From assembly GCF_020723905.1 (NCBI RefSeq), contig NZ_DYHZ01000002.1, forward strand, positions 186,001 to 250,000: 64,000 nt of DNA, written 5' to 3'. Of this stretch, positions 45,560-55,536 are shown one piece after another. The notes beneath the pieces were generated by a model. That model did not search any database. It saw only the letters and a list, made by a program, of their open reading frames with translations, and was not told the origin of the DNA. Positions within the stretch are counted from its first letter, which is position 1, and every line of letters starts with the position of its first letter. This DNA is from Anaerolinea thermophila (lineage in GTDB: Bacteria > Chloroflexota > Anaerolineae > Anaerolineales > Anaerolineaceae). The position numbers and the translations under genes were made by a program.

Positions 45560-47623
45560 TCAGTAGATATCGTTTACAGTGTTGTAAACGTTGAATTTAC
45601 CGGTGGGGGTAATCAGATTAGGAATGCGTGCCTTTTCTTGCAGGGTAGCATCATCGTATACCACGATTTCTCCGGTTTCGCCGGGCTTGGAGGCGTCACC
45701 CCACACGCTGATCCATACCTCTGTGCCCTGTTTGTTGTATTCCATGTGAACGGCGCGTCCATAAGTGGCAATTTCCCAACACTTATGTACCCTGGTAGGG
45801 TCGCTCTTTGCCACCACACACACCGTGCGCGCTAGCGTCGGGTCGGAGTTCAGCGCCATATCTACCCAGATCCACTGACTGTTGGGGTGGGTTTTGATGA
45901 ACAGACTGCCTGCCCCCGGCAGTGGGGTGACCCTCACGGCTTTCCACGCTGAATCGGGATGTCCCTGGGGATCGGTGCCAATGGATACGATGGCGCCTTC
46001 ACCCAGGTGGGATGTGCTCCAGACCGGTCCGAACTCAGGGTCTGTCCAGTTGGCGCCACGTCCGGGATGTGGGACAGCCGGGGTGTCCACCAGCGCTACC
46101 AGTTTTCCTTCCAGCGCATCCACTACAGCGATTTTATTGGACTGATTAGCCGCTACCAGGAAGTATCGTTTCGAAGCGTCCCATCCTCCGTCATGCAGGA
46201 AGCGCGCTGCTTCAATCATCTTGATGGTGGGATTGTTGGGATCGGTGTAATTGACCAGCCAGATCAGCCCGGTTTCCTTCACGTTGATAATCCATTCGGG
46301 TTTATAGGTGGAAGCCACAATGCTGGCAACCCGCGGCTCAGGGTGGTATTCTTCCGTGTCGAAGGTGTAACTGCGGGTGCTGACCACTTTGAAGGGTTCC
46401 AGGGTTTGCCCGTCCAGAATGACGAAGTGTGGAGGCCAGTAGCACCCTACCACAGCGTATTTGTCCGAGAAGTTGCCCAGTTCTCCGTTGTACTTACTCA
46501 CTTCCACCGAGCGAGCATCGTAACATACCTGCACCTCGGCAACTTTGGTGGGGGTTTCGGTCCACAGGTCCACCATGGCAAGTTTTCCGTCGCGCCCGAT
46601 GACGTAAGCATAGCGCCCGCTGGCAGACATGCGGGTAATGTGTACGGCATACCCCGTACCCACTGTGCTGACCACTTCGTAGGTGTCACCGTCAATCACA
46701 GCCACCTGTCCGGCATCGCGCAGGGTGACGACGAAGTAGTTTTCCCAATCCCGTTTCGTTTGGGGGCTGGTGGGGCGTTTTTCGGGTGGGACAAGCAGTT
46801 TCCACGAGGCTTTCATCTGTTCCAGCGCCATCTCTGGTGGGGCAGGCGGTTCGTTCTGCAGGAATTTTGCCATCAATTCGGTCTGTTCCTGAGTCATGAA
46901 GCCCTGTTTGCCCCAGTCGGGCATTCCGCGGGGCGTACCGTTGAAGATGATCGCCGCCAGCGCCAGTGTGCCTTTGGGTTGAGTTTTATCGGGGGTTAAT
47001 GCCGGTCCGGTAGCGCCTTTGCGCAAGGTGCCGTGACAACCCGCACAGCGCTCAAAATAAACCTGCTTTGCCCAGGCAAATTCTTCGTCGCTCAGGGCGG
47101 GAGCGGTACCTGCTGAGGCTGCAACCTCGGCAGTTGGGGTGCGTTTGTCCTCTATTCCGGTTTCCTCCTTAGGCGGGTTCATCATGAAATTTATCATCGA
47201 TTCGATCTCGGCATCAGTGTACAGATCGTTGAGGGTGGCGGGCATCAACCCTTTCTGACAGGGTGTCCCGTTGCAGTCGGGTGCGATAAAGGCGTCTGGC
47301 TGACGAAGCGACTCCTTCAGAAATTCGGCAACGCCTGTGGCTTTTCCTTTGTACTCTCCCCGCTCCAGCCGTTCCTGAACCTTCCGGGCAATGTTGGTCA
47401 GGTCTGGTCCAATTGTGCCAGTCGCGCCTTCTACTCCTGGTATGACGTGACAGGCGCCGCATCCTCCTTTCTGAAAGGCTTGCCGTGCCAGTTCAGTGCT
47501 GTACAGGGCGGGCGGCGGGGCGGAAGCATTTTCGGGTGCAGTAGTGGGAGTGCTTTTCGCTGCGCAGGCGGTAAGTCCCAGCGCAAAAAACACAACCAAC
47601 GAAATGAAAAGTGGGCGTCGCAT
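45560..47623 (-). CDS. nirS: Cytochrome cd1 nitrite reductase with extra N-terminal cytochrome c domain, lipoprotein
   Basis: A 687-aa extracytoplasmic enzyme reducing nitrite to nitric oxide in denitrification. Lipobox LTAC (Cys20). A first cytochrome c domain (about 42-150) has CGACH (55-59). The second (about 183-258) has CAGCHGTLRKGATGPALTPD (193-197 motif) and GTPRGMPDWG, as in NirS. The heme-d1 eight-blade propeller (about 290-687) has TLRDAGQVAVIDGD, GYAVHITRMSASGRYAYVIG (His328), FLHDGGWDASKRYF, HPGRGAN (His519), PVWSTSHLGEG (His539) and the diagnostic end TPTGKFNVYNTVNDIY. Catalytic histidines are conserved. The start at 47623 has GAGGAGGATTCC; upstream frame is spurious. No heme-d1 synthesis genes are nearby. 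Confidence 0.94.
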   Translation of the reverse strand: MRRPLFISLVVFFALGLTACAAKSTPTTAPENASAPPPALYSTELARQAFQKGGCGACHVIPGVEGATGTIGPDLTNIARKVQERLERGEYKGKATGVAEFLKESLRQPDAFIAPDCNGTPCQKGLMPATLNDLYTDAEIESMINFMMNPPKEETGIEDKRTPTAEVAASAGTAPALSDEEFAWAKQVYFERCAGCHGTLRKGATGPALTPDKTQPKGTLALAAIIFNGTPRGMPDWGKQGFMTQEQTELMAKFLQNEPPAPPEMALEQMKASWKLLVPPEKRPTSPQTKRDWENYFVVTLRDAGQVAVIDGDTYEVVSTVGTGYAVHITRMSASGRYAYVIGRDGKLAMVDLWTETPTKVAEVQVCYDARSVEVSKYNGELGNFSDKYAVVGCYWPPHFVILDGQTLEPFKVVSTRSYTFDTEEYHPEPRVASIVASTYKPEWIINVKETGLIWLVNYTDPNNPTIKMIEAARFLHDGGWDASKRYFLVAANQSNKIAVVDALEGKLVALVDTPAVPHPGRGANWTDPEFGPVWSTSHLGEGAIVSIGTDPQGHPDSAWKAVRVTPLPGAGSLFIKTHPNSQWIWVDMALNSDPTLARTVCVVAKSDPTRVHKCWEIATYGRAVHMEYNKQGTEVWISVWGDASKPGETGEIVVYDDATLQEKARIPNLITPTGKFNVYNTVNDIY

Positions 47624-52965: not shown

Positions 52966-53316
52966 ATGATATCCTCCTCTCTTTCGCAAGAAATTACTGC
53001 CCTGCACGCCGATATTTGCTCGGCGCTGGCGGATCCGGTGCGTATTCTCATCCTGTATGCCCTGAATGAGAAGCCCAGCAACGTCAGCGCGCTGGCAGAG
53101 GAACTGGGCATTACCCAGTCGGCGGCATCGCGCCATTTGAACGTCCTGCGCGAACGCGGGCTGGTGATTTCCCAGCGGGATGGGCAGTCGGTGGTTAACA
53201 TGCTCGCCGATTCGCGTGTCATTCAGGCGCTGGATCTGCTGCGCGCGGTGTTAACCAGCAAATTGAAGAATCAGGCGGCGCTTGCCGAAACAATTGAACC
53301 CTCCGAAACGGAGTAA
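52966..53316 (+). CDS. ArsR-family transcriptional regulator of the sulfur cluster
   Basis: A 116-aa winged-helix repressor: CSALADPVRILILYALNEKP, recognition helix ITQSAASRHLNVLRERGLVI, and wing SQRDGQSVVNML. Only one cysteine (Cys18) is present, so it lacks the two-Cys persulfide switch of SqrR/BigR and the usual CxC metal site. The inducer is unknown. It is the first gene of a cluster encoding an SQR-like flavoprotein, a DsrC/TusE protein and DsrE2, 26 nt before the flavoprotein. A palindrome directly upstream suggests autoregulation. Start supported by TAAGG. Confidence 0.9.
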   Translation: MISSSLSQEITALHADICSALADPVRILILYALNEKPSNVSALAEELGITQSAASRHLNVLRERGLVISQRDGQSVVNMLADSRVIQALDLLRAVLTSKLKNQAALAETIEPSETE

Positions 53317-53342
53317 TCTTATTTTGGTACGGGAGTAAACCT

Positions 53343-54581
53343 ATGAAGAAACTCGTTATCCTGGGCGCCGGCACAGCCGGGACGATGGCGGCAAACCGAT
53401 TAAGCCGCGTCCTCAACACCAGCGAATGGGAAATTACCCTGGTGGATCCCAATCCGGTGCATTACTATCAGCCCGGTTTTCTCTTCATCCCCTTTGGGAT
53501 TTATAAGAAAGAAGATGCGTTTAAACCCAAACAGGCGTTCATTCCGCGGGGCGGCAAACTGATTCAAACGGCAGTGGAAGAAATTCTTCCCACTCAGAAC
53601 AGGGTGCGCCTGGCGAATGGCGAAACACTTTCCTACGACTACCTGATCATTGCCACCGGCACGGATATTTATCCTGAGGAAACCCCCGGACTGGCGGAGC
53701 ATGAATGGGGCAAATCCATCCACACTTTTTACTCGCTGGATAGTGCCGTTGCCCTTGCCGATGCCCTGCGCAACTGGAAGGGTGGGCGTCTGGTGGTCAA
53801 TGTGGTGGAAAACCCCATCAAATGCCCGGTGGCACCGCTGGAATTCCTCTTCCTTGCCGACTGGTACTTCACGCAGCGCGGCATCCGCGACCGCGTGGAA
53901 CTCATCTATGCTACCCCTCTGCCCGGCGCATTCACGAAACCTATCGCCTCTCGTCTATTGGGGGATACACTGGAAAAACGCCGTATCCGGGTGGAACCGG
54001 AATTTATGATTATGGAAGTCAACCCCGATGCGAAGAAGATTGTCTCGTACGACGAGCGCGAGGTGGAGTACGACCTGCTGGTGAGCATCCCGCTCAACAA
54101 AGGTGCTGAAGTCATCGGACGCTCGGGTTTAGGCGATGAACTCAACTATGTGCCCACCGATAAGCATACCCTGCTTGCCGAAGGCTATGACAACATCTTT
54201 GTCCTGGGCGATGCCACCAACGTTCCTGCCTCGAAAGCCGGCGCTACGGCTCACTATGAGGTCGATACCCTGGCGGAGAACTTCCCGCGTTACGTTCAGG
54301 GCAAACCGCTGGAGCCGCTCTTTGACGGACATGCCAACTGCTTTGTGGAGACCGGCTTCGGCAAAGGCATGTTACTTGATTTCAACTACAACACCGAGCC
54401 GCTCCCCGGTACGTATCCCCTGCCGTTTGTTGGACCTTTCTCTCTGCTCAAGGAGTCGGTCATTAACCACTGGGGCAAACTGGGCTTCCGCTGGATGTAC
54501 TGGAACATCCTGATGAAGGGATTGCCCATCCCCTTCCTGCCTGCTCAGATGAGCATGGTTGGAAAGCAAAAAGTTAATTAG
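53343..54581 (+). CDS. Sulfide:quinone oxidoreductase-like FAD flavoprotein
   Basis: A 412-aa FAD enzyme of the SQR/FCSD group: N-terminal dinucleotide loop VILGAGTAGTMAANRL, PNPVHYYQPGFLFIPFG, IIATGTDIYPEETPG, and the second FAD motif NIFVLGDATNVPASKAGATA. Two of the usual three redox cysteines are seen: Cys161 (IKCPVAPLE) and Cys333 (HANCFVETG); the first is absent, as in several SQR subtypes. The amphipathic C-terminus (GFRWMYWNILMKGLPIPFLP) suits monotopic membrane attachment. It likely oxidises sulfide or persulfide and passes electrons to quinone. Adjacent DsrC/TusE and DsrE2 could accept the sulfane sulfur. Confidence 0.88.
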   Translation: MKKLVILGAGTAGTMAANRLSRVLNTSEWEITLVDPNPVHYYQPGFLFIPFGIYKKEDAFKPKQAFIPRGGKLIQTAVEEILPTQNRVRLANGETLSYDYLIIATGTDIYPEETPGLAEHEWGKSIHTFYSLDSAVALADALRNWKGGRLVVNVVENPIKCPVAPLEFLFLADWYFTQRGIRDRVELIYATPLPGAFTKPIASRLLGDTLEKRRIRVEPEFMIMEVNPDAKKIVSYDEREVEYDLLVSIPLNKGAEVIGRSGLGDELNYVPTDKHTLLAEGYDNIFVLGDATNVPASKAGATAHYEVDTLAENFPRYVQGKPLEPLFDGHANCFVETGFGKGMLLDFNYNTEPLPGTYPLPFVGPFSLLKESVINHWGKLGFRWMYWNILMKGLPIPFLPAQMSMVGKQKVN

Positions 54582-54635
54582 GAAAAATGCGGCGCTGATA
54601 CCGCATGCTTTGGAAAAACATAAGGAGGATTTGAT

Positions 54636-54953
54636 ATGGCAACTCGCACGATTGCAGGCAAGACCGTTCAGGTCAACGACGAAGGCTTCATGACCAACCC
54701 GGCTGAATGGACCAAAGAAATTGCCGTGGAACTGGCTAAAGAAGAGGGCATTGAAGAACTCACCGAACAGCACTGGAAGGTGATTGATTTCTGCCGTCAG
54801 GCGGGGATGAGCAGTGGCAAAGCACCTACCCTGCGGCAGATTACCACCGGCACCGGACTGTCCACCAAAGAACTGTTTGCGCTGTTCCCCAAGGGACCTG
54901 CCAAGAAAGTGGCGCGTATTTCGGGGCTGGGCAAGCCGGAAGGTTGTGTCTAG
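54636..54953 (+). CDS. DsrC/TusE-family sulfur carrier (single C-terminal cysteine)
   Basis: A 105-aa protein with FMTNPAEWTKEIAVELAKEE, LTEQHWKVIDFCRQ, and the swinging arm ending GLGKPEGCV. The penultimate Cys104 is present, but the second DsrC cysteine, expected 11 residues earlier, is replaced (KKVARISG). It is therefore of TusE-like single-Cys type rather than a DsrAB-linked DsrC. It is predicted to carry persulfide between DsrE-type donors and an unknown acceptor. TAAGGAGG provides a strong ribosome binding site. No dsrAB or tusBCD genes in the window. Confidence 0.93.
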   Translation: MATRTIAGKTVQVNDEGFMTNPAEWTKEIAVELAKEEGIEELTEQHWKVIDFCRQAGMSSGKAPTLRQITTGTGLSTKELFALFPKGPAKKVARISGLGKPEGCV

Positions 54954-55035
54954 TTGATTCGGGGGGATGGGCGTCGGGGGTGACCCCATCCCCATATTTT
55001 TTCAATTCATCAATAATTCTTTCGGAGGAACGGCA

Positions 55036-55536
55036 ATGGCTGAAGAAACTCGCAAAATCGCATTTATCTGCTCAAAAGGCAACCTGGATATGGCTTACCC
55101 TGCGCTGGTGATGGGCTGGGCGGCGCTCGGCAACGGCATTGATGTCACCATCTTCTTCACCTTCTGGGGCATGGATTTGATTAACAAGCATCGCGTGGAT
55201 CATCTGGAGATCCCGCCGGTCGCCAATACCAGCATGAAGATGAACATGATGGGCGTACCCGGCTATCTGGGCATCCCCAATCTGGTGGGTGTTTTGCCCG
55301 GCATGACCGCCTTCGCCACCAAACTGATGAAAGACAAAATGAAAGAAATGGGTGTGCCCACGGTGCGCGAGTATCTGGAAATGCTGGTGGATGCCGGTGC
55401 CAAACTGTACGCCTGCAAGATGTCGGTGGACATGATGGGCTTGAAGAAGGAAGACTTTATTGACGGCGTGATTGATATCGTCACTGCGGGCGATTTTATG
55501 GATATGACCGAAGGCGCGCAGATCATTTTCATCTAA
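55036..55536 (+). CDS. DsrE2-family sulfur-transfer protein
   Basis: A 166-aa protein of the DsrE2/DrsE-like family: IAFICSKGNLDMAYPALVMG, DVTIFFTFWGMDLINK, and the conserved cysteine in LYACKMSVDMMGLKKEDF (Cys127) with another at Cys12. The hydrophobic central stretch (about 75-95) could contact the membrane. DsrE2 proteins bind sulfane sulfur and occur with rhodanese and TusA in sulfur oxidisers. The start at 55036 follows CGGAGGAACGGC. Last gene of the cluster, before a strong terminator. Confidence 0.92.
   Translation: MAEETRKIAFICSKGNLDMAYPALVMGWAALGNGIDVTIFFTFWGMDLINKHRVDHLEIPPVANTSMKMNMMGVPGYLGIPNLVGVLPGMTAFATKLMKDKMKEMGVPTVREYLEMLVDAGAKLYACKMSVDMMGLKKEDFIDGVIDIVTAGDFMDMTEGAQIIFI

Follow-up and report, generated by a model that had tools for sequence, protein, structure and literature searches.

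Nitrite reductases of the cytochrome cd1 type (NirS) that contain two c-type hemes have been described before. In passages of Schwartz et al. (2022; PMC8756737), an architecture termed C1-C2-NirS, in which an additional cytochrome c domain (C1) precedes the canonical cytochrome c domain (C2) and the heme d1 propeller, is presented from an Anaerolineales genome. As stated there, this arrangement occurs in Chloroflexi only, no Chloroflexi C2-NirS is without C1, C1 is suggested to be a built-in electron donor, possibly in the role of the c551 donor, most of the examined Chloroflexi genomes encoding two-heme NirS are without a nitric oxide reductase, and a cupredoxin-C1-C2-NirS form also exists. 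Two of the loci collected here (L004 and L045) look like this last form. The main text of that paper mentions neither 'lipoprotein' nor 'signal peptide'. A passage of Pold et al. (2024; PMC10999283) assigns Chloroflexi C1-C2-NirS to clade 1g, with Supplementary Table S3 being cited there for the presence of nirBEFJNT by clade.

Both the C1-C2-NirS architecture and the idea of a built-in donor are already published and, given the description in PMC8756737, the finding as it was first noted is already known. The present analysis adds a connection with the absence of heme d1 synthesis, evidence that the architecture arose more than once and the presence of a heme receptor gene as neighbour; some of the d1 result may already be contained in Table S3 of PMC10999283. 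In the open-licence literature, no paper was found on NirS in genomes without d1 genes, on d1 auxotrophy or uptake, or on two-heme NirS elsewhere.

The two-heme NirS gene of the window

The window, namely the whole stretch of 64,000 nucleotides of Anaerolinea thermophila DNA that was analysed, contains nirS as a lone gene, flanked on one side by a gene encoding a phosphate-binding-type protein and on the other by a beta-lactamase-fold gene. Elsewhere in the window, genes encoding an ArsR regulator, an FAD oxidoreductase, a DsrC-like protein and a DsrE2-like protein lie in a row (positions 52966-55536), likely corresponding to a sulfur-handling cluster. The first-pass annotation had described the nirS product as a true NirS preceded by an extra CGACH cytochrome and a lipobox. 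Its coordinates were right, with the gene lying on the minus strand, and both additions are seen in the sequence (Table 1).

Table 1. Positions in the window of the C1-C2-NirS gene and its parts.
Feature	Position	Strand	Description or basis
C1-C2-NirS gene	45560..47623	minus, ATG start at 47623	687 aa, lipoprotein-type two-heme cytochrome cd1 nitrite reductase
Signal sequence and predicted lipobox, residues 1-20 (L17-T18-A19-C20)	47564..47623	minus	read by eye
C1, extra cytochrome c domain, residues 42-150, SoxX/c551-like	47174..47500	minus	family scores and AlphaFold2 model
C1 heme motif CGACH, residues 55-59	47447..47461	minus	sequence
C2, canonical NirS cytochrome c domain, residues 178-257	46853..47092	minus	CAGCH 193-197, Met 234
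Heme d1 propeller, residues 292-682; His 328, 477 and 519	45578..46750	minus	Pfam and alignment

A lipobox-type motif was also noted in nine other Chloroflexota NirS proteins in a first survey. C1 was absent from a Pfam scan of the full-length protein; when scanned alone, the domain matched Pfam Cytochrom_C above cut-off (8e-5) and NCBIfam SoxX under cut-off (4e-8), with M127 being the candidate axial methionine. In an AlphaFold2 model of the protein (mean pLDDT 84, pTM 0.80), residues 42-150 are mostly helical and a low-confidence linker (residues 154-168) leads to the NirS fold, while the motif TGKFNVYNT is found close to the C-terminal end. The match of the domain make-up of the gene to a two-heme cd1 NirS is far beyond chance.

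The Pfam family Cytochrom_D1 (PF02239) covers the propeller with a score of 437 bits (E 4.5e-131), and the solved Pseudomonas aeruginosa NirS matches residues 168-687 of the window protein (E 7e-189). A fold search with the model of the window protein returned NirS folds at 53-55% identity, NirN at 24-25% and NirF at 19%. Throughout the 118 rows of the alignment, no variation is seen at the three propeller histidines, which include the catalytic and ligand positions, or at the two C2 ligands, and C2 offers His-Met ligation next to the propeller. In place of a single heme c, the protein contains two CxxCH domains, the same variation as in the Chloroflexi form described in print, with C1, C2 and NirS following one another in one frame in a Chloroflexota host. 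In a tree with four NirN rows as outgroup, the window protein falls with NirS (support 100), and so apart from the non-reductase NirN, as the first-pass annotation had proposed to check by phylogeny of the d1 domain; NirF, compared by fold and score outside the tree, is likewise distant. Judged by its sequence, conserved ligand residues and position in the tree, the window protein is a real NirS with one extra c-heme domain, bearing out the earlier identification.

Heme d1 synthesis in genomes encoding two-heme NirS

The genome to which the window belongs (3.29 Mb, 13 contigs, 99.96% complete) encodes a single protein with a full d1 domain (PF02239), the nirS product itself, such that neither NirF nor NirN was found. 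Siroheme decarboxylase (PF17805) gave no match in this genome and NirJ was not found, the best match scoring 93 bits relative to a cut-off of 515. By these four genes, the genome appears to contain no detectable known heme d1 route. The first-pass annotation had named a genome without any heme d1 synthesis genes as evidence against its reading; this absence, now seen for siroheme decarboxylase, NirJ, NirF and NirN, is taken here as evidence for import of the cofactor and not against NirS identity. The protein giving the 93-bit match is a radical SAM protein adjoining a gene for a Cys-rich peptide. In that region (L032, 1051-3330), the radical SAM protein adjoins a protein with a C-terminal CACACACAC Cys-rich repeat, likely forming a peptide-modifying system.

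Ferrochelatase (TIGR00109) likewise gave no match in the window's genome which, by the genes tested, seems unable to finish protoheme too, so that heme import would be needed in any case. Ferrochelatase is also absent from 14 of the 26 searched Chloroflexota genomes with NirS, such that completion of protoheme seems beyond many of these. A search of the window's genome for eNOR was negative. Its sole heme-copper oxidase carries HPAVY, retaining the tyrosine that is the signature of oxygen reductases, and the heme-copper superfamily thus contributes no nitric oxide reductase to this genome.

With one row being counted per genome, PF17805 scored above cut-off in 2 of the 94 genomes encoding two-heme NirS, as compared to 33 of the 44 encoding one-heme NirS only. 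The 94 genomes correspond to 26 from Chloroflexota, three from the Gemmatimonadales/L068 set and 65 of gammaproteobacterial type, these last comprising 15 from the set of the best 80 relatives (one of which is filed under Acidobacteria) and 50 from an order-level sample in which the N-terminus was read. Genomes containing both kinds of NirS (G511, G607 and G619) were counted as two-heme, G624 contains a second frame of 572 aa of unread class, and in three loci (L057, L058 and L065) the two-heme assignment is based on split or cut frames. The 44 genomes include G571, itself without PF17805. Outside the count are L051, with a cut frame, and 15 order-level genomes, including L146/G635 and L149/G613, in which the class of NirS was unread or cut; none of these contains PF17805. 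In the order-level sample, assembled around a Woeseiaceae genome, 74 of 246 genomes gave strong d1-domain matches and PF17805 was present in G497 and G511 only. In a sample of 400 Chloroflexota genomes, PF17805 was above cut-off in 39 and in none of the 10 with full-length NirS.

As a control for these searches, NirJ was detected in 11 of 60 genomes (387-649 bits) and PF17805 above cut-off in 10 of the 60, all of which encode one-heme NirS. One two-heme Chloroflexota genome (G400) gave a single PF17805 match just under cut-off (24.9 vs. 27 bits). No NirJ of at least 380 bits was found in 43 two-heme genomes, where the best score was 190, as opposed to 11 of 17 other entries (two of which are the same genome). 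Similarly, neither nirJ nor nirD lies beside any of 37 two-heme loci, whereas nirJ is found beside 19 and nirD beside 18 of 43 other loci. PF17805 is also absent from G478, G505, G519 and G537, in each of which the nirS-bearing contig is nearly the whole genome; gaps in draft assemblies are thus not the explanation.

PF17805 is also missing from 11 of the 44 one-heme-only genomes, including small drafts and Chloroflexota without C1 (G397 and G415). As such, the loss of d1 synthesis is not tied strictly to C1, and a strict tie was not upheld. In a phylogenetic sign test, three supported independent pairs were available, with d1 absence accompanying two hemes in 1.8 of these on average and the opposite never being seen; with only three pairs, significance was out of reach. 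A Fisher test on genomes gave 5e-20 but treats relatives as independent and is not leaned on. The association traces back to two or three origins, a number that is insufficient for phylogenetic testing. Moreover, marine isolates of Gemmatimonadota are described in a passage of PMC11651109 as having predicted 'heme D1' clusters, a finding that may argue against a loss of d1 in part of that phylum.

Whether the cofactor is still d1 was considered by following 147 columns of the C2 and d1 domains that are invariant in 12 NirS rows (11 loci) from genomes containing NirDLGH and/or NirJ, a rule that admits L061, in which NirJ is present and PF17805 is absent. In at least 90% of rows, 132 of these columns are kept in 23 Chloroflexota two-heme rows, 137 in 46 gammaproteobacterial-type two-heme rows and 134 in 34 other one-heme rows; His 539 is replaced by Ala in all 46 gammaproteobacterial-type rows. 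In G497, a single contig of 3.47 Mb, a run of nirF, nirD-type genes, nirJ and nirN lies some 260 kb from the only NirS found at E 1e-40, which is of the two-heme kind. G511 also contains a d1 gene run, but a one-heme NirS-type protein is present as well. The conserved columns and the d1 gene run of G497 both say that the cofactor of two-heme NirS would still be d1.

Origins of C1 and the receptor gene beside nirS

The 80 best-matching relatives from GTDB genomes include 37 with an extra CxxCH motif before C2, namely 20 from Chloroflexota, 14 from Gammaproteobacteria, two from Gemmatimonadales and one from Acidobacteria. With 17 of these relatives thus being filed under other phyla, the possibility that two-heme NirS is unique to Chloroflexota was rejected. 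In a tree of 40 rows, the 10 gammaproteobacterial-type two-heme rows are united in a clade (100/94) that branches from within one-heme gammaproteobacterial NirS; eight of the nine Chloroflexota rows group together (100/99), apart from that clade, the ninth not being placed. A common origin of the Chloroflexota and gammaproteobacterial two-heme proteins was rejected (AU p 8e-6), while one of the Chloroflexota and Gemmatimonadales proteins was not (AU p 0.28). The Gemmatimonadales pair and the long-branched L068 may represent further origins.

C1 itself is SoxX-like in Chloroflexota and CcoP-like in Gammaproteobacteria, both under family cut-offs. That C1 is a single mobile domain was rejected, as the two types align over at most 25 columns (54% probability). 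Nor is membrane anchoring the purpose of C1, since lipoboxes exist without it. Lipoprotein-type Chloroflexota NirS proteins without C1 are encoded in L005/L056 (one genome; 9695-11563) and L060 (2663-4486), from which it may be that, in Chloroflexota, the lipid anchor and d1 loss preceded the gain of C1. L056 contains a PT-rich linker where C1 would be. Several other frames depart from the usual form. In Anaerolinea thermolimosa, a cultured carrier, nirS is found in two overlapping frames (L057, 9911-12423), reflecting either a frameshift or a sequencing error; the protein of Candidatus Desulfolinea nitratireducens (L040, 9860-12217) contains a third CxxCH (CVACH) before C1 and C2, possibly corresponding to a three-heme NirS; and a Chloroflexota lipoprotein-type gene (L012, 600-2290; G259) contains d1-propeller pieces in two frames together with CGGCH, and is either a broken or a divergent relative.

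These distributions bear on the role of C1. The first-pass annotation had suggested that the extra heme is a built-in donor, needed by a cell that cannot keep a soluble periplasmic donor. A tethered donor remains the natural reading, as already proposed in PMC8756737. The need invoked is unsupported as worded, because a two-heme NirS also has a separate origin in diderm Gammaproteobacteria and because lipoboxes are also found on the one-heme NirS of neighbouring lineages (L055, L056, L059, L060 and L061).

Examination of the genes surrounding nirS revealed a TonB receptor gene within 500 bp in 37 of 46 gammaproteobacterial-type two-heme loci (i.e., those outside Chloroflexota and Gemmatimonadales), as compared to 1 of 47 one-heme ORFs, the baseline here being one-heme nirS, with second copies and cut frames included. 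Of the receptors at those 37 loci, 35 belong to one family and two are low-scoring, as is the one-heme neighbour; 32 lie upstream on the same strand, often touching nirS. When the count was restricted to loci flanked by 2.5 kb or more on each side, the receptor was present in 34 of 42 two-heme and 1 of 23 one-heme cases. The receptor profile was built from 11 of the receptors later counted, such that scores within that family are inflated, although lower-scoring others were also found by the profile. No receptor lies within 500 bp at the remaining 9 of the 46 loci, and at both Gemmatimonadales loci one is found 1.3-1.6 kb away, on the other strand. Near nirS, a porin-like protein is also encoded in 11 two-heme and three one-heme loci (e.g., L083, 11850-13073; L105, 11872-13098; L072, 12215-13456); it is Alginate_exp by Pfam in the two tested and is possibly a nitrite porin.

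For all six receptors tested, the best NCBIfam families were TIGR01786/TIGR01785 (heme/hemoglobin), above the cut-off of 323.75 bits in two, and the nearest solved chain of one of them was PhuR (3.6e-68). FRAP and NPNL motifs have recognized roles in heme receptors; in the consensus of 36 nirS-side receptors, no conserved His lies between the FRAP and NPDL motifs. G497 contains both d1 synthesis genes and the receptor. Beside nirS in Chloroflexota, where the receptor was the sole import gene sought, none was found at 19 two-heme loci (12 of which have 2.5 kb on both sides). Chloroflexota are not known to have an outer membrane, and the absence of the receptor is as expected of such cells. From gene context, the simplest reading is that the nirS-side receptor would be specific for d1 or dihydro-d1.

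Proposed role, alternatives and relation to known systems

The window gene is best explained, at a probability of about 0.52, as encoding a d1-type nitrite reductase into which the donor has been fused and for which d1 would be imported, the host being without a known d1 route. NirM and NirC act as electron donors to NirS. In the enzyme considered here, an outside donor would reduce C1, which would in turn reduce C2, from where heme d1 in the propeller would be reduced, with nitrite then being converted to NO by the lipid-anchored protein. The apo-enzyme at the cell surface would take up heme d1, or its last precursor, from denitrifying or anammox neighbours; in Chloroflexota, the lipid-anchored enzyme would meet d1 directly, whereas in diderm relatives the heme-type TonB receptor encoded beside nirS would perform the import. 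A nirS gene outside the nir operon would be deprived at once of a dedicated donor and of a supply of cofactor, and fusion of a donor and import of d1 would solve both. More tentatively, and at somewhat less than even odds, heme d1 may be a traded cofactor in general, with several lineages having dropped the pathway, kept nirS and fused a cytochrome c donor at least twice independently, the diderms mostly with a dedicated receptor.

Other explanations account for parts of these observations. An ordinary C1-C2-NirS could receive d1 made in the same cell by an unrecognised pathway, with NirDLGH and NirJ giving way to other decarboxylases and a different radical SAM enzyme. The conserved ligand and domain residues agree with this, as do the radical SAM proteins with NirJ scores of up to 190 bits in two-heme genomes, but no suitable cluster common to the lineages was seen among the 45 largest neighbour clusters, the nearest NirJ-like protein of the window's genome looks like a peptide-modifying enzyme, and such a pathway, which we consider unlikely, would have had to arise in two separate lineages or more, one of which lies within a group of d1 makers. 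It is about equally doubtful that the propeller binds protoheme or siroheme and performs another job, such as sensing NO or nitrite or slow nitrite detoxification. The missing d1 genes, the absence of nitric oxide reductase from most two-heme Chloroflexi genomes mentioned in passages of PMC8756737, and the oxygen-reductase signature of the only heme-copper oxidase in the window's genome would all be in keeping with such a role; against it, the d1-domain residues are conserved to the same degree as in one-heme NirS, and G497 pairs two-heme NirS with a d1 gene run. That nirS is a decaying remnant, on its way out once the d1 genes were lost, is very improbable. The split Anaerolinea thermolimosa gene, possibly a sequencing error, would fit decay, but frames are full in 23 of 26 Chloroflexota genomes (one being split and two cut at the sequence end), residues are conserved in both two-heme lineages and, as given in a passage of PMC7451513, Woeseiales nirS, of unspecified kind, is transcribed at all sediment depths examined.

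The receptor poses its own question, as it could import protoheme or iron for the c-type hemes, with d1 scavenging being unrelated. TIGR01786 and TIGR01785 are indeed named for heme and hemoglobin, and ferrochelatase is absent from 6 of 28 diderm two-heme genomes (G478, G519 and G537 among them), such that the receptor may serve a need for protoheme in those six. Ferrochelatase is, however, present in the other 22, meaning that the majority can produce protoheme though, by the genes tested, not d1, and the receptor is thus not simply there for protoheme need; one-heme nirS loci, moreover, almost always have no such neighbour. On balance, there is perhaps a minor chance that protoheme or iron is what the receptor carries.

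The gene nirS is a standard marker for denitrification. If import of d1 is true and concerns a widespread class of nirS, the gene would in such genomes mark dependence on neighbouring d1 makers and not self-sufficient denitrification, nirS counts would overstate independent denitrifiers, nitrite reduction would be a community property at the level of the cofactor, and a heme d1 receptor would represent a new transport function.

Of the known systems, canonical NirS (P. aeruginosa 1bl9/1nir and P. pantotrophus) has in common with the window NirS the C2 and d1 domains and the catalytic and ligand residues that were checked, and differs in that the latter contains an extra heme c and a lipobox, and is encoded outside a nir operon in a genome without the tested d1 synthesis genes. 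NirN and NirF share the d1 propeller fold with the window protein, yet the four NirN sequences make up a side of the tree separate from NirS. PhuR and other heme/hemoglobin TonB receptors are the nearest solved relatives of one gammaproteobacterial nirS-side receptor but, unlike these, the nirS-side receptors sit in genomes without d1 synthesis. Closest of all is Chloroflexi C1-C2-NirS, as presented in passages of PMC8756737 and corresponding to clade 1g in PMC10999283, with which the window NirS agrees in domain order, phylum and conserved ligands. The passages of PMC8756737 include no genome-wide test for heme d1 synthesis genes, whereas those tested here were found to be absent genome-wide. 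In contrast to the statement in that source that no Chloroflexi NirS without C1 exists, L005/L056 and L060 are of that very form, and two-heme NirS, reported there in Chloroflexi only, is found here outside Chloroflexota as well.
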